From assembly GCA_020049495.1 (NCBI GenBank), contig JAIFKU010000044.1, positions 1 to 56,391 on the forward strand: a stretch of 56,391 nucleotides of DNA, in the 5' to 3' direction. A program made the position numbers and the translations under genes. Below the pieces are notes generated by a model that saw only the letters and a list, made by a program, of their open reading frames with translations, had not been told where the DNA came from and made no database searches. Positions 2,690-33,528 of this stretch are shown here, one piece after another (the first letter of the stretch is position 1; every line of letters starts with the position of its first letter). The stretch comes from Accumulibacter sp. (GTDB lineage Bacteria > Pseudomonadota > Gammaproteobacteria > Burkholderiales > Rhodocyclaceae).

Positions 2690-4816
2690 TCAGGGCAATG
2701 ATCCCTTGTCTGACGTGCTGTTCGAGCCGGCCTGGATGGCCGTCAGCGCAATGGTATAGACGATGTCGTCGACGAGCGCGCCGCGCGAAAGATCATTGAC
2801 CGGTTTGCGCAGGCCCTGCAGCATCGGGCCGACCGAAACGACATTGGCTGAACGCTGGACGGCCTTGTAGGTGGTGTTGCCGGTGTTGAGATCGGGGAAG
2901 ATGAAGACGTTGGCGTGACCATCGAGCGGGCTGCCCGGGGCTTTCTGGCGGCCGACACTTTCCACCGTCGCTGCATCGTACTGGATCGGTCCGTCGATGA
3001 CGAGTTCGGGACAGCGCTGACGGACGATCGCGGTGGCCTGGCGCACCTTGTCGACATCCTCGCCGGTTCCCGATGCCCCGGTCGAGTAGGAGATCATCGC
3101 CACGCGCGGCTCGATGCCAAAGGCGGCGGCCGAGATGGCTGACTGGATGGCGATTTCGGCCAGTTCGCTGGCCGTCGGGTTCGGGTTGATGGCACAGTCG
3201 CCATAGACCAGTACCTGATCGGGCATGAGCATGAAAAATACACTCGACACGATGCTCGAACCGGGTGCCGTCTTGATCAGTTGCAAGGCCGGTCGTACGG
3301 TAGACGCCGTCGTATGCACGGCGCCGGAGACGAGTCCGTCAACATGGCCCTCGGCCAGCAGCATGGTGCCGAGAACCACGCTGTCCTCGAGATGGACTTC
3401 GGCCTGCGGTGCAGTCAGACCCTTCGCCTTGCGCAACTCGAGCATCGGCGCGACGTATCTGGCGCGCAATGTTGCCGGGTCGAGAATTTCCAGGAAAGGA
3501 CTGGCTTCGGGCAGATCGATACCATGGGTCAGGGCAATGGCCCGAACCTGGTCGGGATGAGCGAGCAGCACGCAACGGGCAATGCCCTTGGCCGCGCAGA
3601 TGACTGCGGCGCGGATGGTACGCGGCTCGTCGCCTTCCGGCAGAACGATTCGCCGTGCGGCGTTTCGGGCATTCTGAATCAGGCGATGACGGAACATGGG
3701 CGGGGTCATGTGGCCCGCACCGCTTCGGTTACCTGTTGTAATCAGAAGTTTCAGATCAACGTGATCGGCGATATGGTCCATGATGCGATCCATGCGTTCC
3801 GGGTCATTGAGCGTGACGCGACGATCCATTGAGGAAATGCGCACGGCGACGTCGTAGGTCTGCAACTCGGTGGTCAGTATCGGCAGATCGCCAAAGCGGG
3901 GGCTCAAAAAGGTGTCGATGGATTTGGCCATCGGTTCGCCACAGGTGAGCAGCAGGCCGGCAATAGGCATGCCACCGGCGCGAGCCAGCGCCGCAGCGAG
4001 GACGAGATCGGAACGATCGCCCGGAGTCACGATCAGGGTACCCGGGCGCAGGCGTTCGACGAGTTTGTCGGCACTGCGCGCTGCCACGATGATCTCATGA
4101 ACCCTGGCCTGTTCGATGTCGCCAGGGCGATCCACCGTGAAGCCGAGATTCTCGGCCACGTCGATCAGGCGAGGGGCAGAGAGTTCGGGGTTGTCGGGCG
4201 ATATGCAGACCAGCGGCGTCTTCAGTCCTGATTCGGCAAGTCCGCTGGCGATATCTTCACGATAGGATGAGGCTTTCGGCACGCGCACGGCGATGGCTCC
4301 CGCCAGCGGACGTCCTCCCTCGCCACCGTAACGATACGAGGCATCGGTGATGGTCTCGACAATGTTGCGTACGCTGGTATTCCGTCCATGCACGAGGACG
4401 ATGACTTCCGCGCCAAGGTTGCGGGCAATGGCGCGATCCAGATCGGTCATCAGGGGGTGATCGTGGCTGGGCGTAATGCCTTCGACGATGACCATGCTGC
4501 ATGTGCCGCGCGCAGACTCGACCAGGGCGACAATTTCTTCCAGCAGACTGGCCTCGTCGCCGGCACGTATCATGTCTTCGGCATGCTTTGCCGGAATCGG
4601 ATCCGGGGTGGAAAGCCCGCACAGGGTGCGGGCAAAGTGCACAGAGCGGTCGGGGCGGCCGGAATCAAGTCCGACGTCGGAAACGGGTTTGGCGAAGCCG
4701 ACCTCGAAGCCTTCCCGCTGGTAGGCACGGATCAGGCCGAGTGCCGTCGATGAAGCGCTGATCACGCCTGAAGCGGGTGCGAGGTAGAGGGTACGAAAAG
4801 CATGTCTTGTGGTCAT
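2690..4816 (-). CDS. pta: Phosphate acetyltransferase, long form
   Basis: The 708-residue product matches the long form of phosphotransacetylase, which interconverts acetyl-CoA and acetyl phosphate in the cytoplasm. It has an N-terminal P-loop-like domain starting LYLAPASGVISASSTALGL, a DRTGG domain in the middle (about 220-330) and a C-terminal PTA_PTB catalytic domain (from about 380) with RIVLPEGDEPRTIRAA, GLVSGAVHTTASTVRPALQ and MISYSTGASGTG. The frame extends to 4882, but ATG 4816 has the AGAGAGGA sequence upstream and the family-like start MTTRHAFRTLYLAP. No acetate kinase gene lies in the window, so its usual partner is elsewhere or absent. Confidence 0.93.
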   Translation of the reverse strand: MTTRHAFRTLYLAPASGVISASSTALGLIRAYQREGFEVGFAKPVSDVGLDSGRPDRSVHFARTLCGLSTPDPIPAKHAEDMIRAGDEASLLEEIVALVESARGTCSMVIVEGITPSHDHPLMTDLDRAIARNLGAEVIVLVHGRNTSVRNIVETITDASYRYGGEGGRPLAGAIAVRVPKASSYREDIASGLAESGLKTPLVCISPDNPELSAPRLIDVAENLGFTVDRPGDIEQARVHEIIVAARSADKLVERLRPGTLIVTPGDRSDLVLAAALARAGGMPIAGLLLTCGEPMAKSIDTFLSPRFGDLPILTTELQTYDVAVRISSMDRRVTLNDPERMDRIMDHIADHVDLKLLITTGNRSGAGHMTPPMFRHRLIQNARNAARRIVLPEGDEPRTIRAAVICAAKGIARCVLLAHPDQVRAIALTHGIDLPEASPFLEILDPATLRARYVAPMLELRKAKGLTAPQAEVHLEDSVVLGTMLLAEGHVDGLVSGAVHTTASTVRPALQLIKTAPGSSIVSSVFFMLMPDQVLVYGDCAINPNPTASELAEIAIQSAISAAAFGIEPRVAMISYSTGASGTGEDVDKVRQATAIVRQRCPELVIDGPIQYDAATVESVGRQKAPGSPLDGHANVFIFPDLNTGNTTYKAVQRSANVVSVGPMLQGLRKPVNDLSRGALVDDIVYTIALTAIQAGSNSTSDKGSLP

Positions 4817-4895
4817 GAAGCTGCAATCCTCTCTGCATGATTGAATCCAGAAAGGATAATGATAGCACTTGCGATCATTCATTCCCGTCGGCGGG

Positions 4896-11426: not shown

Positions 11427-11556
11427 CTTGCGGACAGGATGAAGCTTTAAACGTGACCTCCCGCAAGAGGAGGAGCGACAGTCAAGTGCAGAGTTGAGTA
11501 CTCCGGCCCCCGGGGAGCCTTTCACAGGTTTCGGGCCATCGTGATAGGGGATGTTC

Positions 11557-13617
<2,061 letters not shown>

Positions 13618-22642: not shown

Positions 22643-23137
22643 ATGCCATCGTTCGATTTTTCTTCAGAAGTGGACATGGTGGCGCTGAAGAATGCCATCG
22701 ATTTGACCGGGAAAAGAATCATTGGCCGGTATGACTTCAAGGGCACGAGCGCCAAGGTCGAGTTGGGAGACAAGGACAGCATCATCACACTCTTCGCCGA
22801 CTCGGACTTCCAACTCAACCAGATCAAGGACATCCTTTTCCCTGTGATGGAAGACAAGGAGCCGGACAGTACTAAACGCCTGGACGCCCAGACCATACAG
22901 AAAATTTCGGGCGACAAGGTCAAGCAGGAGTTGAAGATCAAGATCGGAATCGAAAGCGAGTTGGCGAAAAAAATCGTCAAGTTGCTCAAGGACTCGAAGC
23001 TCAAGGTGCAAGTGGCCATTCAGGGTGATGCGGTGCGCGTGACCGGCGCCAAACGCGATGTTTTGCAAGATGCTATTGCGCTGGTCAAGAAATCGATCAC
23101 CGACTTCCCGATCAAGCACGGCAATTACCGCGATTGA
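22643..23137 (+). CDS. yajQ: YajQ-family nucleotide-binding protein
   Basis: The 164-residue protein starts MPSFDFSSEVDMVALKNAID and includes KGTSAKVEL and the C-terminal QVAIQGDAVRVTGAKRDVLQDAIALVKK. It has two ferredoxin-like repeats in the YajQ/UPF0234 fold. A Xanthomonas homologue binds cyclic di-GMP and acts in gene regulation, so this could be a second-messenger receptor in an organism that makes the messenger with the GGDEF protein at 34.6 kb. That link is inference only. Confidence 0.94.
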   Translation: MPSFDFSSEVDMVALKNAIDLTGKRIIGRYDFKGTSAKVELGDKDSIITLFADSDFQLNQIKDILFPVMEDKEPDSTKRLDAQTIQKISGDKVKQELKIKIGIESELAKKIVKLLKDSKLKVQVAIQGDAVRVTGAKRDVLQDAIALVKKSITDFPIKHGNYRD

Positions 23138-23182: not shown

Positions 23183-26100
23183 ATGCCCATGTCGTCAAAG
23201 ACTGTTGAAAGCTCGGAAGAAACAGAACGCATCAATTCTGGCGCGCTTTCCTGGGTGGAAGAGTTGCGGCGCGTCTCGATGGCGGTCAGCAAGACGGCCA
23301 ACAAGGCTTCTTCCGGTCGCAACCAGGTGTTTTATCTCCTGCACTGGACGCACGATGCCGATGCGTTCGGGGTCACCATACACAAGGGACGAGACCCCGA
23401 GAGCGCCGAGCAATGGTGGAGTATTGATCGGGCCCTGATCAAGCCGCCGCCGTTCGTCAGCGAGGAAGACGTCATTATTCTTCGCCTGCTCTGGGCTGAA
23501 AGAACCCATGACAGCGGACTGCGCGCCTTTGGCCTGGGACCGAAGCACGGCGGTGAGGTCTTGCGCCGGATGGCACAAACAGGCCGTCTCTGCCCGGCCA
23601 ATGATTTTTCATCCCTGCTGCTCTCCGAGTCGCGTCCGGCGAGTGTGAATTGGCGACTCGACAGCAACGGGCGTCAACGGCCGTGCTTCAGACCGACGCC
23701 TGAGGCCAGCCTGGTCATTCCGCTGCAGCCCCCGTGGTATGTTGATCTGGATGAAGACCTGATCGGTCCGCTGGAGGTGCCGGGTAACCCTGAACTGATC
23801 GGGCGGCTGTTTGCACTGCCGCCGCTTTCGGTCAAGGAAGCGACACGGGTTGCCGAGGCGCTGACCGGACTCGCGTCTGAATTGCCGATACCTGCCGCTG
23901 ATGCCGATGCCCGTTCTCGCCGCATCGATGTCAGCCCCGTGCCCGTGTTGCGCCTGCAGACGCTGGATACGCATGGCAACAGGGGCTGGCGCGATTATTC
24001 CTCGAGCTATACGGGAGGCCACTTCGACGTGGCACTCCCGATGTTCTGCTATCAGGATGTGGAAATCAAGCCGGACGATATTCGCGAATTCTCTACCTTG
24101 CCCGATGGCGAGACCGTTTGTGTGCTGCGCCGCTACGAACTGGAAAAAGCCCTGATGCAAAGCCTGAATGAATGCGGCTTGCAAAGAATACCGGGCTATG
24201 CCCTGCACACCTTTGGCAGTCCGCCTGACAGTGCGTATGGTCTGGCCAATGAAGCGTGCTGGCCCGGTTTCATGCAGCAGGCCCTGCCTGCGTTACGCAG
24301 TGCCGGCTGGCAGATCGAATTTGACGATGACTTCCGCCATCACGCACTGGAAGTCGAGGCCTGGGAAGCCGAGCTTCTCGAATCGGAAAACGGCTGGTTT
24401 GACCTCGATATGGGCATTATTGTCGAGGGCGAGCGTTTGCCCCTGGCGCCACTGCTCGCTTCCCTGTTCCGCTGGGATGCCCGCTGGCTGGACACGGCCT
24501 TGCTGCAGCGTATCGCCGATGACGAGATGGTCGAACTCAGGACGCCGGACAATCAGCGCATTCGCGTTCCAGCCGCGCGCCTGAAGCCTCTGGCAACGAC
24601 CCTGATCGATCTCTTCGACGGATTTTCAGGCGGAAATACGCTGCGTCTCTCGCGTTTCGATGCGCCGCGTCTGGCTGAGCTCAGCGACACCAGTCGCTGG
24701 CAGTTTCGTGGGCAGGCTGATGTACTGGCTCTTGCCGACCAGTTGTCCGTGGCCCAGGGAATCAGTCACATCGATTCGCCCGCCGGCCTCGGGCTGGAAC
24801 TGCGTTCGTACCAGAAGGAGGGCCTAGCCTGGCTGCAGTTCCTGCGCGAACATAAACTGTCGGGCATCCTGGCCGACGATATGGGTCTGGGCAAAACGGC
24901 GCAGGCGCTGGCACACCTGCTGCTGGAAAAGGAAGCCGGGCGGCTCGATCGTCCGGCACTGATTGTCTTGCCCACGTCACTTGTTTTCAACTGGAAGAAT
25001 GAAGCTGCACGCTTTGCTCCGAGTCTGACCATCCTTTCCCTGCATGGTGCCGAACGCAAAAGCCGGTTTGTCGAGATTACCCAGCATGATGTGGTGTTGA
25101 CCACCTATCCCTTGCTGTGGCGAGATGCCCACGAACTGACCCGGCATCGCTATCACCTGCTCATCCTTGACGAAGCACAGACGGTCAAGAACGCCCGCAG
25201 TCAGGGTGCAGAGGTGGTGCGCAAGATCGACGCCCGACACCGGCTCTGCCTGACGGGCACACCGCTGGAGAACCATCTGGGCGAGTTGTGGAGCCAGTTT
25301 GATTTCCTCCTGCCCGGTTTCCTGGGTGACAGCAATACCTTTACCAAATACTGGCGAACGCCAATCGAGAAACAGGGCGATGCGCCGCGCCGCAATCTGC
25401 TGGCGCGGCGCATACGGCCGTTCATCCTGCGCCGCAAGAAAGAAGAGGTCGCGCGCGAGTTGCCGCCCAAAACGATTATCGTACGCAAGGTTGAACTTGC
25501 CGGCAGCCAGCGCGACCTTTACGAGACCGTCCGCGCGGCGATGGATGTCATGGTGCGCGAAGAGGTTGCCAACAGGGGCTTCGGACGCAGCCAGATTGTC
25601 ATCCTTGATGCGCTGCTCAAACTGCGACAGGTTTGCTGCGACCCGCGCCTGGTCAAGGCGGCTTCGGCGCAGCGGGTGAAGGAGCGCGCCAAACTTGATC
25701 TGCTGATGACCATGTTGCCCGAGCAGGTTGACGAAGGCCGGCGCATCCTGCTTTTTTCGCAATTCACCAGCATGCTGTCACTGATCGAGACCGAACTGAA
25801 ACAGGCCGGGCTTGACTACGTTATCCTGACCGGTGATACCACGGACCGTGAAACGCCGGTGCGGCGATTCCAGGCCGGCGAGGTGCCGATTTTCCTGATC
25901 AGCCTGAAGGCCGGAGGTGTTGGTCTTAACCTCACGGCCGCCGATACCGTGATTCACTACGATCCGTGGTGGAATCCGGCCGTTGAGAATCAGGCAACCG
26001 ATCGAGCGCATCGACTCGGTCAGGACAAGCCGGTGTTTGTCTATAAACTGATCATCGCCGGCAGTATCGAGGAAAAGATTCTGGCCTTGCAGGAACGCAA

Positions 26101-26200
26101 AGCCGAGCTAGCGGCCGGGATTCTGTCGGAGGATCGCAGCATCGACCTGAAATTCGGTGAGGACGATATGGTGGCACTTTTTTCACCTTTACCCGCTTAG
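23183..26200 (+). CDS. SNF2-family helicase/ATPase without the usual SWIM zinc finger
   Basis: The 1005-residue protein has an N-terminal region of unknown fold (1-530) and then a full Swi2/Snf2 motor: Q/I motif YQKEGLAWLQ, Walker A DDMGLGKTAQA at about 565, DEAQ box LLILDEAQTVKN at about 660, LTGTPLENHLGELWSQFDFLLPGFLG, and the helicase C half with LFSQFTSML, LISLKAGGVGLNLTAADTVIHYDPWWNPAVE and DRAHRLGQ. This class remodels DNA-protein complexes. Homologues in related bacteria commonly start with a SWIM zinc finger (CxC...CxH); none is present, and a TAA stop lies just upstream of the start. Start at 23183 or 23189. Confidence 0.9.
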   Translation: MPMSSKTVESSEETERINSGALSWVEELRRVSMAVSKTANKASSGRNQVFYLLHWTHDADAFGVTIHKGRDPESAEQWWSIDRALIKPPPFVSEEDVIILRLLWAERTHDSGLRAFGLGPKHGGEVLRRMAQTGRLCPANDFSSLLLSESRPASVNWRLDSNGRQRPCFRPTPEASLVIPLQPPWYVDLDEDLIGPLEVPGNPELIGRLFALPPLSVKEATRVAEALTGLASELPIPAADADARSRRIDVSPVPVLRLQTLDTHGNRGWRDYSSSYTGGHFDVALPMFCYQDVEIKPDDIREFSTLPDGETVCVLRRYELEKALMQSLNECGLQRIPGYALHTFGSPPDSAYGLANEACWPGFMQQALPALRSAGWQIEFDDDFRHHALEVEAWEAELLESENGWFDLDMGIIVEGERLPLAPLLASLFRWDARWLDTALLQRIADDEMVELRTPDNQRIRVPAARLKPLATTLIDLFDGFSGGNTLRLSRFDAPRLAELSDTSRWQFRGQADVLALADQLSVAQGISHIDSPAGLGLELRSYQKEGLAWLQFLREHKLSGILADDMGLGKTAQALAHLLLEKEAGRLDRPALIVLPTSLVFNWKNEAARFAPSLTILSLHGAERKSRFVEITQHDVVLTTYPLLWRDAHELTRHRYHLLILDEAQTVKNARSQGAEVVRKIDARHRLCLTGTPLENHLGELWSQFDFLLPGFLGDSNTFTKYWRTPIEKQGDAPRRNLLARRIRPFILRRKKEEVARELPPKTIIVRKVELAGSQRDLYETVRAAMDVMVREEVANRGFGRSQIVILDALLKLRQVCCDPRLVKAASAQRVKERAKLDLLMTMLPEQVDEGRRILLFSQFTSMLSLIETELKQAGLDYVILTGDTTDRETPVRRFQAGEVPIFLISLKAGGVGLNLTAADTVIHYDPWWNPAVENQATDRAHRLGQDKPVFVYKLIIAGSIEEKILALQERKAELAAGILSEDRSIDLKFGEDDMVALFSPLPA

Positions 26201-26566
26201 GGTGAGTTCTCATTTAGCGGGGCGTGACCGTCCGTCAAATGAGAACACCCCCTAAATTCTGGCTACTGTTTTTATTGAATACATTGCCTGCCAGATCGCG
26301 TATCTGAAATCCAAAGTTTGACCCGCTAGCCGTGGACGAGGATAATTACGGGTTTTGCAGTTCTCTCACCTGCCTGTTGATTGGTCAAATAAGCCTCGTT
26401 TTCCTGGTTTACGGTTTTTGCTGCGCGGATGAAGGTGCGCTCGAACCGGTCAAATAAGGGTTAGGGATGGTACTTCACTCATTGCAGGTGTGCCAACCAT
26501 GGATTCTGATGCGCAACAAATCAGTCGACAGGCTCGAAGCAGCCTAGAAAACACAGGATTTTATTC
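26201..26566. other. Intergenic region with inverted and direct repeats, possible IS scar
   Basis: This 366-base gap holds a perfect 10-bp inverted repeat, GTTCTCATTT (26206-26215) and AAATGAGAAC (26237-26246), six bases after the helicase stop. It also holds an 11-bp direct repeat GGTCAAATAAG at 26383-26393 and 26448-26458. The first may serve as a terminator, although it has no T run, or may be the end of a lost element. No coding frame is convincing. The region must also contain the promoter of the rquA-like gene. Confidence 0.5.
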
Positions 26567-27277
26567 ATGACCGAGAATCATTCGTCACTTGCTATCGACC
26601 CCTATTACGACGGCGTCCCGGCGTACATGACCGAAGTTTATGACTGGGCCTATGTCGATCCCAAGTGGGTGCGCGCGCTCGATCGCAATTGGGTGGTCCG
26701 GGTTCTCCTGTTTTTGAACGACCAACGCCTGATGCGCGCTTACCTCGACGAAATCAGGGAAGGCATGCGTGTCTGGCAATTGGCACATGTCTATGGTGAT
26801 CTGGTGACGCGTGCGGCGCAGAAAGTCGGTGCCAAGGGCGTTTTCCATCTGACCGACGTGACGCCCGTCCAGATTGAGCACGGTACGCGCAAACTGGCCG
26901 GCATGGACTGGACGAAAGTCATTCGCAGCGATGCGGCTGATTTTGGCGGTGATGATGCGGTTGATTACGATCTGATCTGCAGCTTCTTCCTGTTGCACGA
27001 GGTTCCGGATGAAAAAAAATACGAAATTGTGAATAACATGCTGCAAAAGCTGTCCCGGGGCAGCAAGATCGTTTTCGTCGATTACCATAATCCCGCGAAA
27101 TGGCAGCCGATTCGATACATCCTGAAACTCGTCAATTACTATCTTGAACCCTTTGCCGAAGCGCTCTGGAAAAACGAAATCGAACACTTTGCAAGCAATG
27201 CCGAACAATTTTCCTGGTGCAAGAAAACATTCTTCGGCGGCGTTTATCAGTGCGTGGTGGTCGAGCACAAGGACTGA
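26567..27277 (+). CDS. rquA: Probable rhodoquinone biosynthesis enzyme RquA
   Basis: The 236-residue class I SAM-binding protein fits RquA, which converts ubiquinone to rhodoquinone using SAM as amino donor. Characteristic parts seen are VYDWAYVDPKWVRALDRNW (25-42), LAHVYGDLVTR (72-82) in the place where ordinary methyltransferases have the glycine-rich motif I, LTDVTPVQIEH (95-105), FFLLHEVPDEKK (140-151) and VDYHNPAKWQPIRYILK (171-187). The loss of the GxGxG signature is a known RquA trait. Rhodoquinone carries electrons to fumarate reductase under anaerobiosis. The gene stands alone after a repeat-containing gap. The alternative is an ordinary ubiquinone-type methyltransferase, which I think less likely. 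Confidence 0.82.
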   Translation: MTENHSSLAIDPYYDGVPAYMTEVYDWAYVDPKWVRALDRNWVVRVLLFLNDQRLMRAYLDEIREGMRVWQLAHVYGDLVTRAAQKVGAKGVFHLTDVTPVQIEHGTRKLAGMDWTKVIRSDAADFGGDDAVDYDLICSFFLLHEVPDEKKYEIVNNMLQKLSRGSKIVFVDYHNPAKWQPIRYILKLVNYYLEPFAEALWKNEIEHFASNAEQFSWCKKTFFGGVYQCVVVEHKD

Positions 27278-27354: not shown

Positions 27355-28077
27355 TTATGGCTCTCGCCCCTCACCTGCTTCTTCATACGTCTGTCCGTCG
27401 CGGATGTGATAAATCCGCTTGAAGGTGGGCAGGATCTTTTCGTCGTGAGTGACGACGATGATGGCGGTTTTGTGCTGTTCGGCCATACGATTAAGGATGC
27501 GCATGACGCCGAGCGCCCGTTCGCTGTCGAGCGGCGCGGTCGGTTCGTCGGCGAGAATGACCGGCGGCTGATTGGCCAGCGCACGGGCGATGGAAACACG
27601 TTGCTGTTCCCCGCCGGAAAGGCTTGATGGCAGTGCCTTGGCGCGATGCTGGACATCAAGATCGGTGAGCAGTTCGAGGGCGCGGCTTCTTGCTTTTTCG
27701 TTAGCAACGCCGGCCAGCATGGGGAGCAGGGCGACGTTGTCGGTGACATCGAGAAACGGGATCAGGTAAGGGGCCTGAAAGACAAAGCCGATGTTGTCGC
27801 GGCGCAGAGCGCGCAGGTCGCGGTTCAGCCAGCCATTATCGTAGAGAAGCTGATTCCCGAGCCACATCCTGCCTGCAGTCGGTTCGATCACGGCCCCCAG
27901 ACACTTGAGCAGGGTGCTCTTGCCGGAACCGCTAGGGCCTATCAGGCCAACCACTTCACCGGGTGCGACGATCATATTGACGTCGCGTAGAGCTTCGACG
28001 GCCGTGTCGCCTTCGCCGTAACGCTTGCGCAAGCCTTCTATACGGATGCCAAGTGCCTTGTGTGCTGAAGTATTCAT
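27355..28077 (-). CDS. ABC transporter ATP-binding protein (MacB/LolD/DevA type)
   Basis: The 240-residue ATPase has Walker A GPSGSGKSTLLKCLG at about 43-57, the signature LSGGEQQRVSIARALANQP, Walker B VILADEPTAPLDSE and the switch His in VVTHDE. It belongs to the group that powers FtsX-fold permeases rather than channel transporters. It is the last gene of the TetR-adaptor-permease-ATPase operon, three bases after the permease stop. The exported substrate is unknown. Confidence 0.93.
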   Translation of the reverse strand: MNTSAHKALGIRIEGLRKRYGEGDTAVEALRDVNMIVAPGEVVGLIGPSGSGKSTLLKCLGAVIEPTAGRMWLGNQLLYDNGWLNRDLRALRRDNIGFVFQAPYLIPFLDVTDNVALLPMLAGVANEKARSRALELLTDLDVQHRAKALPSSLSGGEQQRVSIARALANQPPVILADEPTAPLDSERALGVMRILNRMAEQHKTAIIVVTHDEKILPTFKRIYHIRDGQTYEEAGEGREP

Positions 28078-28080
28078 TCC

Positions 28081-29286
28081 TCAGCCGCCAATGGCGGCCG
28101 CTGGATCGGCCTTGAGTGCAATGCGGATGGCCAGAACGCTGGCAATCGAGCAAATCAGCATGACCAGAACGAAACCGCGCATGGCGTCGCCTGGTTCCAG
28201 AAGAACGTATTTCGGAAAAATGGGTGCCCAGACCGAGGCCACCGTCTTGCCGACCATGAAACCGATGACTCCGAGCCCGAGCGCCTGTTGCAGGATCATG
28301 CCGGCGATGGTTCGATCGCGTGTGCCGATCAGCTTGAGCACGGCGATTTCGCGAATCTTGCTGATGGTCATAGTGTAGATGATGAAGGCCACGATGGCCG
28401 CACTGACAATGGACAGAATGACGAGAAACAGACCAATCTGCCGGGCTGAGTTGGTGATCAGCTTGGCGATCAGGATTTCGCTCATTTCGGCTTGCGTGTA
28501 GGCCTGCAAGTGTTTCCAGCGCTCGATGTTGCGCGCAACCTCGGTCGCTGAGTGCCCTTCTGCAACACTGACGAGCACGCTATTGACGTTGTGGCTGATG
28601 GTTTGTGACGACTGGATCGCTTCGAGCAGACCGGGCGCTCCCGGGCGGTTCAGCGTCGGGTTGGCGGCGGTACGCGTGCGCTCGTTGCGGATGGCGTCGT
28701 TGTCCTTGAGGAATTGCGTTTCCTGTCCGTCTTTGAGCGGGATGTAGATCATCGGGTCGCCACCCGAAGACACCATGCGCCGGGTTTCACCCACCACGGT
28801 GTAGTCGTGGCGGCGAATGCGGATGCGGTCACCCACGACGAATCCGGTCTTGATGTCAACAACGGCCTCATAGTGGCTGCGCATGATATGCCGGCCGGCA
28901 ACGAGATAAGGCGGTTCGCCGGGCTGACCGGGCTCGAAGCCGACGACCATGACACGCACTTCGTCGCTGCTCTCGCTGCCGCTCTTGCTGACCTGCATGG
29001 TGAGGTAGGTGACGTTCGCCGCGCGTCGCACCCCTGGCAGGCCGAGAATGTCGCGATAGACGTCGTCGCGCAGGCTGGACGATTCAGCGTAGGGGCCGAG
29101 CGTATTCTTCTGCACGACCCACAGATCGGCGCCGCTGTTGGCGAGCAGCGCCTGTGCGTCATCGACCATGCCGCGATAGATGCCGGCCATGCTCAGCGTA
29201 ACACCGATGAGCAGCCCCAGACCCATGCCGGTCAGGACAAACTTGGGCCAGGAATGCAGGATGTCGCGTCCGGCCAGGCTGATCAT
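28081..29286 (-). CDS. ABC transporter permease, FtsX/MacB fold (DevC-like)
   Basis: The 401-residue protein has one N-terminal membrane helix (about 15-35), a large periplasmic domain (MacB_PCD type, to about 270), and three C-terminal helices of the FtsX domain (for example IGLFLVILSIVSAAIVAFIIYTM and GFVLVMLICSIASVLAIRIAL). With an ATPase and an adaptor it would form a mechanotransmission exporter like DevBCA or MacAB. Start and adaptor stop overlap by four bases. Confidence 0.9.
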   Translation of the reverse strand: MISLAGRDILHSWPKFVLTGMGLGLLIGVTLSMAGIYRGMVDDAQALLANSGADLWVVQKNTLGPYAESSSLRDDVYRDILGLPGVRRAANVTYLTMQVSKSGSESSDEVRVMVVGFEPGQPGEPPYLVAGRHIMRSHYEAVVDIKTGFVVGDRIRIRRHDYTVVGETRRMVSSGGDPMIYIPLKDGQETQFLKDNDAIRNERTRTAANPTLNRPGAPGLLEAIQSSQTISHNVNSVLVSVAEGHSATEVARNIERWKHLQAYTQAEMSEILIAKLITNSARQIGLFLVILSIVSAAIVAFIIYTMTISKIREIAVLKLIGTRDRTIAGMILQQALGLGVIGFMVGKTVASVWAPIFPKYVLLEPGDAMRGFVLVMLICSIASVLAIRIALKADPAAAIGG

Positions 29287-30470
29287 TTTCCTGATCCGGT
29301 CAGTTTTGCAACGACCTTGATGCTGCTGTCGGATTTTAGTGCCTGCTCGCTGTAGACCACGACACGTTCGCCCACGGACAAGCCTTCAATGACTTGAACG
29401 CGACCGTCGACGCCCTGGGCCAGCGCTTTCACCGGAACGAACTGCAGCCCGTTGTCGACCAGTTTCCAGACCCCGGTCTGGTTGCCCTGATAACGGAGGG
29501 CGGCGCTGGGAATGACACGCGCTTTGCTGACAGTGGGGAGCTGCAAGGTGATCTCGGCGATCTCGCCAAGCGAAAGCGTGTCCGGGATGTGATCAAAGCT
29601 GACCTGGGCGATGCGTTCCTCGGTAATGCTGTCGGCAATTAGTTCGACTCGGATGACCTTGCCGGCGAACGCGATTCCCGGTTGCGAACGCAGCGTGATA
29701 CTTGCCGGAAGACCGGGCTGCAGGCCGCTCGAACGGCTCTGATCCAGCCTGAGCTTGAGCCACAGGCTGGTGGGGTCGACCATGCGTACGGCGCTTTGTC
29801 CGGCAACGAGGGTCGAGCCGGATTCAGCGTCGCGCGCGGTGATGACACCGGCCACCGGCGCGACAAGGCGGATTTTCGCGCGTTGCACCAGCAGGCCGGC
29901 GTGTTCTGCTCCAAGGCGGGCCTGATCCTGTCGGGCTGCGGCCAGTGTGGCCTCGGCGGCACCGAGTTGGGCCATCGCCGACTGCTCTTCCTGAAGCTTG
30001 CCGTCGACAACGCTGCGCGTAACGAAGGCCTTTTCGCCCAGTTCAACGTAGCGTCTGGCGTTGCTGCCGGCGAGATTGAGTCGAACCTGGGCGTCGCGTC
30101 GTTGCGCGTCGGCGGCGGCAATGGTACTGGCGGCCCGCGCCAATGCAGCGCCTCCGGCGGCTGCACGCTGATCAAGGTCGATCGGGTCCATCTCGACGAG
30201 CACTTGCCCGGCCTTGACGGCTTCACCCACATCCACCGTAACACTTTGCACACGGCCAGCGACGATCGGCCCGATCTGGTAGCTGCGGCGTGCTTCTACG
30301 GTAGCAATTCCAAACAGCACGGGCGCCAGATCGGCTTCGGCCACCTCGGTGACCGTCACCCGGATCGGTGCCAAGGGGCCGCTGCGAGCAACGATCAAGC
30401 CGAAACCGGCGAGCAATGCAAGGACGGCGAGGGTCAGCAGGATTTTCTTCGCGCTGAAAGCTTTGCTCAT
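29283..30470 (-). CDS. Periplasmic adaptor (HlyD/RND membrane-fusion family)
   Basis: The 395-residue protein has an N-terminal membrane anchor (KKILLTLAVLALLAGFGLIVA, about 8-28), a biotinyl-lipoyl half GPIVAGRVQSVTVDVGEAVKAGQVL, a long alpha hairpin rich in Ala and Gln (about 100-190), the other lipoyl half VAPVAGVITARDAESGSTL and beta-barrel domains. It bridges the inner-membrane exporter to an outer-membrane factor, which is not encoded here. It overlaps both neighbours by four bases, so the operon is tightly coupled. Confidence 0.92.
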   Translation of the reverse strand: MSKAFSAKKILLTLAVLALLAGFGLIVARSGPLAPIRVTVTEVAEADLAPVLFGIATVEARRSYQIGPIVAGRVQSVTVDVGEAVKAGQVLVEMDPIDLDQRAAAGGAALARAASTIAAADAQRRDAQVRLNLAGSNARRYVELGEKAFVTRSVVDGKLQEEQSAMAQLGAAEATLAAARQDQARLGAEHAGLLVQRAKIRLVAPVAGVITARDAESGSTLVAGQSAVRMVDPTSLWLKLRLDQSRSSGLQPGLPASITLRSQPGIAFAGKVIRVELIADSITEERIAQVSFDHIPDTLSLGEIAEITLQLPTVSKARVIPSAALRYQGNQTGVWKLVDNGLQFVPVKALAQGVDGRVQVIEGLSVGERVVVYSEQALKSDSSIKVVAKLTGSGK

Positions 30471-31096
30471 GCGGACTCCTTGAGACTGCGCAGAAACAGG
30501 GGAAAGATCTTTTCTGCCGTTTTGTGCATGGCCGGCACGTTGTCGGCGACCATCGATTGCATGACCAGACCTTGAATGGAACCGAGAAAGAGGGTCGTCG
30601 CGGCGATAGCATCGATACTCCGATCAACTTCGCCGCAGACCGCCGCCGCTTCGATCAGGCCGGTGACAAGTTTGCGGTAGCGCTGGAGTAGCTTGCGTAC
30701 CGCAGCCTTGATAGCCGAATCCGCTGGCTGCTGCAATTCGTTGAAAATCAGGCGTGGCACGCCAGGTCTTGCCATAACGAAATCGATATGACTGAAAAAT
30801 ACCGCCTGCAGTCCGTCGATGGGACTAGCCGTATTCTTTGCTGCGGATTCCATTGCGCTGAGAAGGTTTTCCTCAACCCAGTCAATTGCTGCCAACCAGA
30901 CGGCTTCCTTGCTCGGGAAGTGACGAAAGAGCGCACCTTGTGTGAAACCGATCGCGTTGGCTATTTCCTGCGTCGTGATCTGGCCAGGGCTCTGTCTTGC
31001 GGCGAGCGCTATCACCGTTTCGATGATTTGCGTTTGTCTCGTCTCCGAACTGAGACGGGCTTGAGTGGCCATTTTTGATTTCACGGGAATACTCAT
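30467..31096 (-). CDS. TetR-family transcriptional regulator of the export operon
   Basis: The 209-residue protein has a TetR-type helix-turn-helix at about 15-62 (QIIETVIALAAR...TTQEIANAIGFTQGALFRHFPSKEAVWLAAI) and a variable C-terminal ligand domain. As the first gene of the export operon, with a palindrome right in front of it, it most likely represses the operon and itself until an inducer binds. Translation may begin at ATG 31096 or at the second Met (about 31072). Confidence 0.9.
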   Translation of the reverse strand: MSIPVKSKMATQARLSSETRQTQIIETVIALAARQSPGQITTQEIANAIGFTQGALFRHFPSKEAVWLAAIDWVEENLLSAMESAAKNTASPIDGLQAVFFSHIDFVMARPGVPRLIFNELQQPADSAIKAAVRKLLQRYRKLVTGLIEAAAVCGEVDRSIDAIAATTLFLGSIQGLVMQSMVADNVPAMHKTAEKIFPLFLRSLKESA

Positions 31097-31225: not shown

Positions 31226-31954
31226 TCAGTTGCTGATGCAGCCTTTGATCCAGACCGAATACAACTGGTCGGCAAGCAGACGCATGGCCGGGAGACGGGT
31301 CCGTGTTTGCGCCAGCATCTGTTCCGGGGTTTGAACGCTTGCCGGCAGTGGGTCGACGCCGTTTACTTCTGCCCGCCAGGTCTTGCACCACTCGCTGATC
31401 ATTTCAGGATCCATCTCGACATGGCACTGCATGGCCAGATGCGGGCCGAGGGAGAACATCTGGTTGGCGCAGAACTCATTGGTGAAAATCCGTTGCGCGC
31501 CGGAGGGGATGCTGAACGTTTCGCCGTGCCACTGAAAGACATTGGCGAGTCCGCTGCTTTCATCAAGACAACTGCCAAGCCATGGACCTGTGCTGGCGTT
31601 GTTCTCGGCGTGAATAGTTCCCCAGCCGATCTCCTTGACCGGGCTTTGCGTGATGACGCCGCTAAGTGCCTTACTCATCAATTGGCCGCCCAGGCAATGG
31701 CCGATGACCGGGATGCCTCGGTCGACGGCAGAGCAAATCAACGCACATTCCTGATCAATCCACGGCAGCGGATCGTTGACGCTCATCGGCCCCCCCATCA
31801 GACACAGACCGGCGAATGCCTCTGCGCGGGAGGGGATGGATTCGCCCTGGTCAATGGCGATCAGTTGCCATGGAATCGAGCGTTGGTCGAGGAATGTGGC
31901 AAAATAGCCTGGTCCCTCGGTTTTGGTGTGGCGAAAGATGGCGATGGGTTTCAT
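31226..31954 (-). CDS. Class I glutamine amidotransferase-like protein
   Basis: The 242-residue protein starts MKPIAIFRHTKTEGPGYFATFL and has the GATase1 triad: nucleophile Cys in IGHCLGGQLMSKAL and His/Glu in QCHVEMDPEMI. LCLMGGPMSVNDPLPWIDQE is typical of stand-alone amidotransferases of the GuaA-like or gamma-glutamyl-hydrolase type found in many proteobacteria; the acceptor is unknown. The ATG at 31954 shares bases with the start of the divergent protease gene. Upstream in-frame sequence lies in that other gene and is not part of it. Confidence 0.85.
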   Translation of the reverse strand: MKPIAIFRHTKTEGPGYFATFLDQRSIPWQLIAIDQGESIPSRAEAFAGLCLMGGPMSVNDPLPWIDQECALICSAVDRGIPVIGHCLGGQLMSKALSGVITQSPVKEIGWGTIHAENNASTGPWLGSCLDESSGLANVFQWHGETFSIPSGAQRIFTNEFCANQMFSLGPHLAMQCHVEMDPEMISEWCKTWRAEVNGVDPLPASVQTPEQMLAQTRTRLPAMRLLADQLYSVWIKGCISN

Positions 31955-32636
31955 GATTGGTCGATTCCAGATGGCAGGCACGGGTTCAAGGTACGCGGCA
32001 GATTTTACGCGCGCTGCGTTGCTTGGCATAGGCTTGCTCACGTCTTTTGTGCATGCCGCGGATGTGGGTCTGGCCGGACTGTTTCCCGGAAAGGCCCTGC
32101 TCACCATCAACGGCGGCGCACCACGCATTGTTGCGCTGGGAGTCAAAACCGCCGAAGGGGTGCAAGTCATTTCAATCGAGGGGGAAACTGCGACCCTTGA
32201 GGTCGATGGAAAGAAACGGGTGTTGCGCGTCGGACAGAATGTGGCTTCGCAGCCGTCAGGTCGCGGCCAGGCCACGGCCACATTGACCTCCGACGCGGGC
32301 GGACATTTTTTTGTTACGGGCAATATCAACGGCACGACCGTTCGTTTTATTGTCGATACTGGAGCGTCGATGATTTCTCTCGGGTCGGGCGATGCGCGCC
32401 GGATCGGCCTGGATGCCAGCAAGGGGGAGCAGGGACTCGTCAATACCGCCAATGGCCAGACGCGGGTGTCGCGTGTCAAACTGGATACTGTGCGTATTGG
32501 CGAGATTGTTCTTAATAATGTTGACGCTCTGGTGCATCAGAATGATCTTCCGGTCGCTCTGCTCGGCATGAGTTTTTTAAACCGCATGGAAATGCAGCGA
32601 AATGGTGACACCATGACGCTGAAGAAACGCTATTAG
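31953..32636 (+). CDS. Retropepsin-like aspartic protease (TIGR02281 clan AA type)
   Basis: The 227-residue protein has an N-terminal hydrophobic segment ending TSFVHAAD (probably a signal peptide), a PulC-like small domain (GLFPGKALLTINGGAPRIV...GVQVISIEGETATLEVDGKKRVLRVGQ) and a C-terminal single-domain aspartic protease with VDTGAS in FIVDTGASMISL and the closing ALLGMSFLNRMEM. Such proteins form dimers like retroviral protease, here probably in the periplasm. The start at 31953 makes CATG with the opposite gene; ATG 31971 is an alternative. The next gene starts nine bases on. Confidence 0.85.
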   Translation: MIGRFQMAGTGSRYAADFTRAALLGIGLLTSFVHAADVGLAGLFPGKALLTINGGAPRIVALGVKTAEGVQVISIEGETATLEVDGKKRVLRVGQNVASQPSGRGQATATLTSDAGGHFFVTGNINGTTVRFIVDTGASMISLGSGDARRIGLDASKGEQGLVNTANGQTRVSRVKLDTVRIGEIVLNNVDALVHQNDLPVALLGMSFLNRMEMQRNGDTMTLKKRY

Positions 32637-32645
32637 GAGAACGAG

Positions 32646-32909
32646 ATGCCACATCGCGACCAGGAAATAATCATGTTGCGCCGCGAACTTGAAATGCTGA
32701 TGGGCGAGCGGCAAACCCTGTTACGGGTTGTCGGATCGACCGCTGCCCTCATCGCCAGTCTGGACAGCAAGCATCTGCCGGTGGGTGCCGTCGAGTCTGC
32801 CGATCTTGCAGCGACATCGATCAATGCACTCTCCGAAGAAACCTTGCAGGACGCCCTCAATGCCGTTCGCGCCGAAATCGAGGATGAGGAGGCCGGTGAC
32901 GGAAAATAA
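32646..32909 (+). CDS. Small coiled-coil protein of unknown function (87 aa)
   Basis: I do not recognise a named family. The N-terminal third, RDQEIIMLRRELEMLMGERQTLLRVVG, is a strong heptad pattern that should form a coiled coil, and the C-terminal third (EETLQDALNAVRAEIEDEEAG) is an acidic helix. It has no signal or membrane part. AGGAGA precedes the ATG. Its end overlaps the NUDIX gene start by 14 bases, so it belongs to the protease-NUDIX-CobD-like transcription unit. Confidence 0.75.
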   Translation: MPHRDQEIIMLRRELEMLMGERQTLLRVVGSTAALIASLDSKHLPVGAVESADLAATSINALSEETLQDALNAVRAEIEDEEAGDGK

Positions 32910-33528
32910 TTCTTTTTCTGCGGCGAAAAAGTGCACGATTTCCGAGAGCCTTGATTCTGAACGTCTGCGTTCCGTGCTTCATCCGGTTCCTTTGCGAACC
33001 GTTTTTGTCCGCGAGGAAGATGTCGGTGAGGAGGATCTGATACCGGCTGCTGTTCTCTTTCCCATTGTCTTGCGCGAGAGCGGGCCTGCGGTGCTGCTCA
33101 CGCAGCGAACGGCGCATCTCAGAGAGCACCCGGGTCAGATCAGTTTTCCCGGCGGGCGCGTTGAGCCGGAAGATGCTTCCCCTGCGCATACCGCCTTGCG
33201 TGAAACAGAGGAAGAAATCGGACTGACCTCCGCGCATATCGAGATCGTCGGCTATCTGCCCGAATACCGGACCATTACCGGCTTTCGCGTGATGCCTGTG
33301 GTGGGATTGGTGAGGCCGCCTTTTGATTTACATCCCGATCCGAGTGAGGTCGCCGATGTCTTCGAGGTGCCGCTGGCTTTCTTGATGGATTCTGCCAACC
33401 ATCAGCAGCATGCGGTGCACAATCGGGGGAAATTGCGTTACTACTATGCCATGCCTTACGAAGACTATTTCATCTGGGGGGCAACGGCCGGGATTATCGT
33501 GACCCTGGCCCGGGCACTGGCGGCCTGA
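32896..33528 (+). CDS. NUDIX hydrolase, CoA pyrophosphatase (NudL) type
   Basis: The 210-residue protein has the combined signature of the CoA pyrophosphatase group, LLTQRTAHLREHPGQISFPGG, running into the Nudix box GGRVEPEDASPAHTALRETEEEIGL. The family cleaves CoA and its derivatives to 4'-phosphopantetheine and ADP. The start is GTG at 32896, with AGGAGG four bases ahead, which explains the overlap with the previous gene; the longer open frame upstream is the shadow of that gene. Confidence 0.9.
   Translation: MTENNSFSAAKKCTISESLDSERLRSVLHPVPLRTVFVREEDVGEEDLIPAAVLFPIVLRESGPAVLLTQRTAHLREHPGQISFPGGRVEPEDASPAHTALRETEEEIGLTSAHIEIVGYLPEYRTITGFRVMPVVGLVRPPFDLHPDPSEVADVFEVPLAFLMDSANHQQHAVHNRGKLRYYYAMPYEDYFIWGATAGIIVTLARALAA

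Follow-up and report, generated by a model that had tools for sequence, protein, structure and literature searches.

Does the open reading frame (ORF) at positions 26567–27277 of the window, the whole stretch of 56,391 nucleotides analysed here, encode RquA, and what would its host do with such an enzyme? A first-pass annotation had proposed a capacity to make rhodoquinone (RQ) and to run fumarate reduction with it, and had described the gene as rare, standing alone and possibly acquired by transfer. We examined the protein, its position in a tree, its genomic neighbourhood and the quinone-related genes of its relatives.

Family assignment and tree position

The rquA ORF lies on the forward strand, runs from an ATG start to a TGA stop at exactly the coordinates first annotated, and encodes a protein of 236 residues. 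The motifs LAHVYGDL, FFLLHE and VDYHNPAKWQPIRY, on which the original identification had leaned, were found letter for letter in the translation. In the NCBIfam search, the best family was the rhodoquin_RquA equivalog NF038261 (295.1 bits against a cut-off of 175, E = 3.3e-88), with positions 1–217 of the 218 in the profile covered by the window protein. The next NCBIfam family, the UbiE equivalog, reached 31.9 bits, far under its cut-off of 378. The five listed Pfam matches were all to methyltransferase domains, each under its cut-off, and no PDB chain matched by sequence at an E-value of 0.01. An AlphaFold2 model built from 32 aligned rows (mean pLDDT 91.9, pTM 0.88) shares with the NF038261 family a predicted S-adenosylmethionine (SAM)-dependent methyltransferase-like fold, and the 50 best rows of a Foldseek comparison of this model to the PDB were other SAM-dependent methyltransferases and their relatives.

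The first-pass annotation had named a tree as one way to refute the assignment. We built one of 89 proteins by a quick method, sampling 48 of the best 80 loci, 30 class- or order-level proteins (12 scoring as RquA and, from the 25 at 143–183 bits, another 18), six of seven UbiE stretches and four UbiG proteins; of the six UbiE rows, two were checked by profile and passed as UbiE (433.3 and 424.3 bits, cut-off 378). The window protein falls in a 52-row RquA clade (support 98) with no UbiE or UbiG inside, and the UbiE and UbiG groups form clades of their own (support 99 each). The protein thus passes the RquA equivalog cut-off and lies in an RquA clade outside the UbiE and UbiG groups. RquA as a whole is not one group in this tree: of the 12 class- or order-level RquA rows, three sit in the window's clade and nine outside it; eight of these join, at a support of 85, an 18-row RquA-like group, and L031 is unplaced. 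The tree drew flags for four long branches and a single warning that long branches meet, namely those of L032 and the 18-row group.

The RquA-like group (L033–L050) is of separate interest. It was drawn from 25 class-level matches at 143–183 bits, which straddle the NCBIfam cut-off of 175, and its 18 rows placed in the tree form a single clade with a support of 100. TEYG-like letters replace VDYH in this group, and 14 of the 18 rows carry Asn at the column of Asp122, a residue discussed below. One member, L034, scores 179.5 bits, over the cut-off, so its automatic naming as RquA is to be expected.

UbiE and UbiG have the same fold class as the window protein and a weak sequence similarity to it, but they keep GTG or GGG at motif I, lie outside its clade and are encoded by separate genes in the genus. 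That an ordinary UbiE- or UbiG-kind ubiquinone/menaquinone methyltransferase was mistaken for RquA, as the weak UbiE match at 31.9 bits and the generic methyltransferase domains under their cut-offs might suggest, is ruled out by the profile scores and the tree, with sister genomes carrying both enzymes as distinct genes (the two UbiE proteins tested by profile, and UbiG in 27 of 28 genomes), and we give it practically no weight. The genus-genome searches showed no UbiE in the genome from which the window comes. By its sequence, the window protein is a genuine, normal-looking RquA, predicted by homology to carry out the SAM-dependent amino transfer that turns ubiquinone (UQ) into RQ. The enzyme family is already known, and nothing changes for the gene family itself.

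Spread and neighbourhood of rquA

The window's genome is a 3.46-Mb assembly of 178 contigs, estimated to be 85% complete, so absences within it prove little. It appears to belong to Propionivibrio in the GTDB sense, the genus of P. dicarboxylicus, some members of which carry the NCBI name Accumulibacter (L053, L065). All 28 genus genomes searched have an rquA over the cut-off, at 282–301 bits, and no other match exceeds 54.6; the close rquA homologues in the 28 genomes contain no internal stops. Beyond the genus, rquA was found in 33 of 121 genomes of the family and 20 of its 68 genera, with some genera mixed. At the class level, 19 of 369 genomes (the window's included) exceed the RquA cut-off, 12 of them at 225–318 bits, and the other seven score near the cut-off and belong to the separate RquA-like group. 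PMC5953543, in the part available, reports rquA in 59 of 946 betaproteobacterial genomes. Thus, the gene is rare in the class, as first described, but not in the genus, and its patchy distribution is borne out within the family. One genus genome carries, beside its full copy, a second partial rquA-like stretch corresponding to residues 1–71 (G004:C221:1351-1563, 69% identical).

We compared gene order around rquA in L051–L130, counting synteny only at a query coverage of at least 50%. Upstream in the window lie a YajQ-like (DUF520) gene (22643–23137, forward strand, Pfam PF04461) and, as the immediate neighbour, a gene for an SNF2-type helicase (23183–26200, forward strand, Pfam PF00176, 225.4 bits). 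The order YajQ–SNF2–rquA recurs in 12 of the best 80 of 559 relatives (L051–L061 and L088), all of the Propionivibrio kind, and SNF2 adjoins rquA in 15 of the same 80. Downstream, a four-gene cassette on the reverse strand (27355–31096), identified by Pfam as an ABC ATPase, a MacB/FtsX permease, an HlyD-type adaptor and a TetR regulator, stands between rquA and an ORF with a class-I glutamine amidotransferase domain (31226–32479, reverse strand, Pfam PF00117). The domain occupies residues 218–358 of this ORF, whose assigned start is probably too early. By synteny, it is the amidotransferase gene that usually comes next after rquA in the genus; it follows within 230 bp and without the cassette in 10 of the best 80 of 559 relatives. 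A NUDIX hydrolase gene (32728–33528, forward strand, Pfam PF00293) is a further neighbour conserved by synteny. P. dicarboxylicus (L060) and L051 have the upstream order in common with the window but not the amidotransferase gene, and three relatives at 64–65% identity (L080, L081 and L086) have only the downstream genes in common with it. Because the neighbour order is conserved, we conclude that rquA occupies its long-standing position within the genus, the cassette being the newcomer.

The 366-bp intergenic gap before rquA (26201–26566) contains repeats, as had been noticed in the first-pass annotation. An imperfect 24-nt inverted repeat (26197–26220 and 26232–26255; 83% complementary, with a perfect 10-nt core) occurs as a single copy in the window, its first arm taking in the last four bases of the SNF2 gene. 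In addition, an 11-mer is present in three copies. The inverted repeat may be a terminator or the remnant of a mobile element. A promoter and terminator scan gave results at about the level of shuffled sequence. The 300-bp regions before 81 rquA genes were also scanned for the FNR consensus. A site with one mismatch or none occurred in four of them (mean 0.5 and largest 3 in 200 mononucleotide shuffles), and a site with two mismatches or fewer in 19 (shuffles: mean 7, largest 14). These counts are above those of the shuffles, but they come from rows that are related to one another, the sites vary in position, and the best one in the window itself has two mismatches; we therefore propose no FNR control. 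A different element, TTGG-N6-TCAA, recurs about 68–110 bp before rquA in twelve relatives (L079, L082, L085, L098, L100, L104–L106, L110, L116, L117 and L120); it does not match the FNR consensus, and a different regulator may bind there.

The history of the gene is best read from these neighbours. A recently transferred rquA, or a contig that entered the assembly as a contaminant, would accommodate its low GC content (0.523, against 0.589 for the window), the repeats in the gap on its 5' side and the copies in Deefgea (Chitinibacteraceae), which are 76–79% identical and, among the matches listed, closer than some genus members at 64–65%. Against this, the conserved YajQ and SNF2 neighbours in the 12 Propionivibrio-kind loci among the best 80 of 559 relatives, the equally low GC content of yajQ (0.515) and the presence of rquA in all 28 genus genomes make such an origin highly improbable, and we reject a recent transfer on the synteny and the genus-wide presence. 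The proposed acquisition by transfer therefore survives only in an older form: the patchy distribution in the family and the Deefgea copies make an older transfer between lineages likely, and it may have been a transfer long ago into the ancestor of the genus. Similarly, the gene stands alone only in the sense that no quinone gene was seen beside it.

Motif I and the conserved aspartates

In the window protein, residues 73–78, AHVYGD (26783–26800, forward strand), replace the glycine-rich SAM motif I, as judged by column comparison. Val75, Tyr76 and Gly77 are present in all 48 named RquA rows and all 12 class-level RquA rows, and the same columns read GTG in six of six UbiE rows and GGG in four of four UbiG rows. 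The named rows were drawn from the best 80 of 559 relatives; since the search patterns asked for [CH]VYG or FFLLHE, counting motifs among these rows is in part circular. A motif I that differs from that of other class I methyltransferases is also described for RquA in the accessible text of PMC5953543.

Two aspartates were of particular interest. Asp97 (codon 26855–26857, forward strand) is the probable equivalent of Asp118 in Rhodospirillum rubrum RquA and is Asp in 60 of 60 RquA rows, and Asp122 (codon 26930–26932, forward strand) is the probable equivalent of Asp143, with Asp in 59 of the 60 rows and Asn in one. These pairs were matched by conservation and spacing, rather than by direct alignment, the distance of 25 residues between Asp97 and Asp122 being that between Asp118 and Asp143. 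According to the available sections of PMC9814641, RQ8 synthesis was abolished when Asp118 and Asp143 of R. rubrum RquA were both changed to alanine. Thus, the window protein resembles R. rubrum RquA (Q2RPC3) and the NF038261 family in its near-whole profile match over the cut-off and its altered motif I, and resembles the R. rubrum enzyme also in two aspartate columns at the same spacing. The remaining columns conserved in RquA are kept as well.

One departure from the NF038261 family is residue 74 (26786–26788), which is His within AHVYGD. His is found here in 47 of the 48 named rows and Cys in all 12 class-level RquA rows, three of which sit inside the window's own 52-row clade.

This substitution bears on whether the protein could be an RquA-like paralogue that has kept the fold and lost the amino-transfer activity, for example because residue 74 is His instead of Cys. 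The division between His in the named rows and Cys in the class-level rows would fit such a loss, as would the Asn in place of Asp122 in the related group at the cut-off, on account of which relatives with another function may exist, and the RquA homologue from a Desulfobacterota genome that gave no RQ in Escherichia coli (PMC13386864, as far as its text is available). However, the other conserved RquA columns are kept, the gene is retained in 28 of 28 genus genomes, and the His form is common to Chromobacterium and Aquitalea, both named in the rquA phylogeny of PMC11707229, a study in which 15 species were tested. We consider a loss of activity very unlikely and hold to the reading of the window protein as an RquA that would make RQ.

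Fumarate reductase, quinone genes and the proposed role of rhodoquinone

A search for fumarate reductase genes, suggested at the outset, found a complete set in the window's genome. The genes frdA, frdB, frdC and frdD follow one another in this order on contig C8 (L135, 3751–7061). FrdA scores 1030.9 bits (cut-off 854) and also passes TIGR01176 (941.6 over 932.7), the iron-sulphur subunit scores 406.2 (cut-off 333) with a model named 'succinate dehydrogenase/fumarate reductase', and FrdD scores 142.1 bits (cut-off 60). FrdC passes Pfam PF02300 (142.4 over 24.2) and misses the NCBIfam equivalog NF003445 (100.2 against a cut-off of 143). The set therefore resembles the E. coli-type FrdABCD in that three subunits pass NCBIfam models and FrdC passes Pfam. 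By PF02300, FrdC was found in 25 of 28 genus genomes, including every one of the 17 whose completeness is 90% or more and whose contamination is 5% or less.

The E. coli-type FrdABCD works with a low-potential quinol, and its usual partner in E. coli is menaquinol. In the 28 genus genomes, the two menaquinone markers searched, menD and mqnA/D, gave no match over the cut-off: menD had weaker matches in all 28 (best 92.5, cut-off 244.2) and mqnA/D in eight (best 24.7, cut-off 26), the best of the latter (L146) looking like a transport protein from its sequence and its ABC-ATPase neighbour. Since neither marker passes, rhodoquinol is the likely partner of Frd here, in contrast to E. coli. The substrate of RquA should be available, since UbiG exceeds its cut-off in 27 of the 28 genus genomes and the window's genome (G000) holds a UbiG fragment of 155.9 bits, over the cut-off, and, where a contig ends, a fragment of UbiU (445.7 bits, cut-off 440). 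On these fragments, the host is predicted to make ubiquinone, and UbiU would probably allow it to do so without oxygen. Ubiquinone-7 is reported for P. soli in PMC11881992, the available text of which does not mention rhodoquinone.

The energy context first proposed for the gene was a pyrophosphate-driven proton pump and a phosphotransacetylase. The latter is present as a phosphate acetyltransferase (2690–4882). The membrane pyrophosphatase (11551–13617) is also present and matches best a model named 'sodium-translocating' (1178.6 bits); since the H+ model TIGR01104 passes too, the pump may move either sodium ions or protons.

Within the window's genome, rquA and frdABCD are on different contigs (C88 and C8), and no frd gene was found in the flanking DNA covered, which extended to at most 5 kb on either side of rquA, in the best 80 of 559 relatives. 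The two are joined elsewhere in the family. L167 is a genome in one contig and belongs to another genus; there, rquA (278.2 bits) ends 91 bases before frdA on the same strand, with frdB, frdC and frdD following on that strand, and L168 from the same genus has the same order. The RquA proteins of L167 and L168 are 33% identical to that of the window, and their FrdA is 79% identical to FrdA here. Across the 121 family genomes searched for each gene, the two sets being assumed identical, rquA and FrdC occur together in 13, rquA alone in 20 and FrdC alone in 14 (odds ratio 3.4, p = 0.013 by genome, with kinship ignored); both are present in eight of 68 genera (p = 0.019 by genus, with kinship ignored). 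The association of rquA with frd is thus real in places and far from strict. The available part of PMC5953543 already describes that in many bacteria rquA lies close to genes of complex II.

Other candidate enzymes were seen in the genus. A higher-scoring SdhA-type protein (about 780 bits), which we take as a succinate dehydrogenase, is present in seven of the 28 genus genomes, some of them incomplete and Ca. P. aalborgensis among them, a species for which PMC4930944, in its available part, lists both SDH and FRD. With this other kind of SdhA in only seven of 28, the same Frd enzyme may run both ways, with UQ and RQ, in most members of the genus. A flavoprotein on contig C81 of the window's genome is an L-aspartate oxidase. 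A FAD_binding_2 flavoprotein of 697 residues (L137, 892–2985, contig C117) is related to the fumarate reductase models and scores far under the frdA cut-offs, and similarly weak matches like it occur in several genus genomes.

The most serious alternative accepts that RquA makes RQ and assigns it a main partner other than FrdABCD. RQ might then serve reverse electron flow, a flavoprotein that resembles fumarate reductase or some other quinone enzyme. FrdC is missing from 20 of the 33 rquA-bearing family genomes, the 697-residue flavoprotein is in the genome, and rquA and frdABCD are on separate contigs, all of which would fit. On the other side stand the rquA–frdABCD cluster of L167 and L168 with its 79% identical FrdA, the FrdC in each of the 17 good genus genomes and the lack of any menD or mqnA/D over the cut-off in the 28. 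We regard a different main partner as possible and rather unlikely, and on balance find it very likely that RquA makes rhodoquinone in this organism and that the product is used with FrdABCD for fumarate reduction, judging from gene content.

The proposed pathway begins with RquA, which by homology to the R. rubrum enzyme would bind SAM as amino donor, with Mn2+, and would exchange one of the methoxy groups on ubiquinone for an amine to give rhodoquinone; the use of SAM and Mn2+ in converting UQ to RQ is described in the available text of PMC9814641. A dehydrogenase such as complex I would then reduce RQ, and FrdABCD would oxidise the rhodoquinol and reduce fumarate to succinate. The portion of PMC13386864 available puts the potential of RQ about 160 mV lower and couples this quinone to the reduction of fumarate. 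Succinate would finally be converted to propionate. Propionate is the product after which Propionivibrio is named. We infer from the genes the catalytic activity, the occurrence of RQ in these cells and its partnership with FrdABCD in the window's organism. With RquA and a fumarate reductase present and no sign of the menaquinone genes searched, rquA probably allows fumarate to serve the cell as an electron sink when oxygen is absent.

The added value of the analysis lies in the genus-wide pattern of rquA and frdABCD without the menaquinone markers searched. Among the open-licence papers that made up the literature searched, no report of a genus-wide link between Propionivibrio and rhodoquinone or rquA was found; in the available text of PMC13310139, rquA appears only in the reference list and rhodoquinone in the title of a reference. 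That rhodoquinone is probably genus-wide in Propionivibrio is a modest new point, and it predicts RQ in a genus that holds both P. dicarboxylicus and a wastewater glycogen-accumulating organism. RQ would be a fitting electron donor for fumarate reduction in cells that have ubiquinone genes and lack the two menaquinone markers. Somewhat more tentatively, we favour the view that throughout Propionivibrio, the wastewater glycogen-accumulating species included, the low-potential anaerobic quinone is RQ, not menaquinone, and that the E. coli-type FrdABCD works with rhodoquinol. The redox-balance model for phosphorus removal in PMC4930944 names fumarate reductase and, in the part of the paper available, no low-potential quinone. 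If the proposal is true, RQ would fill this gap in the redox-balance models of phosphorus-removal plants.
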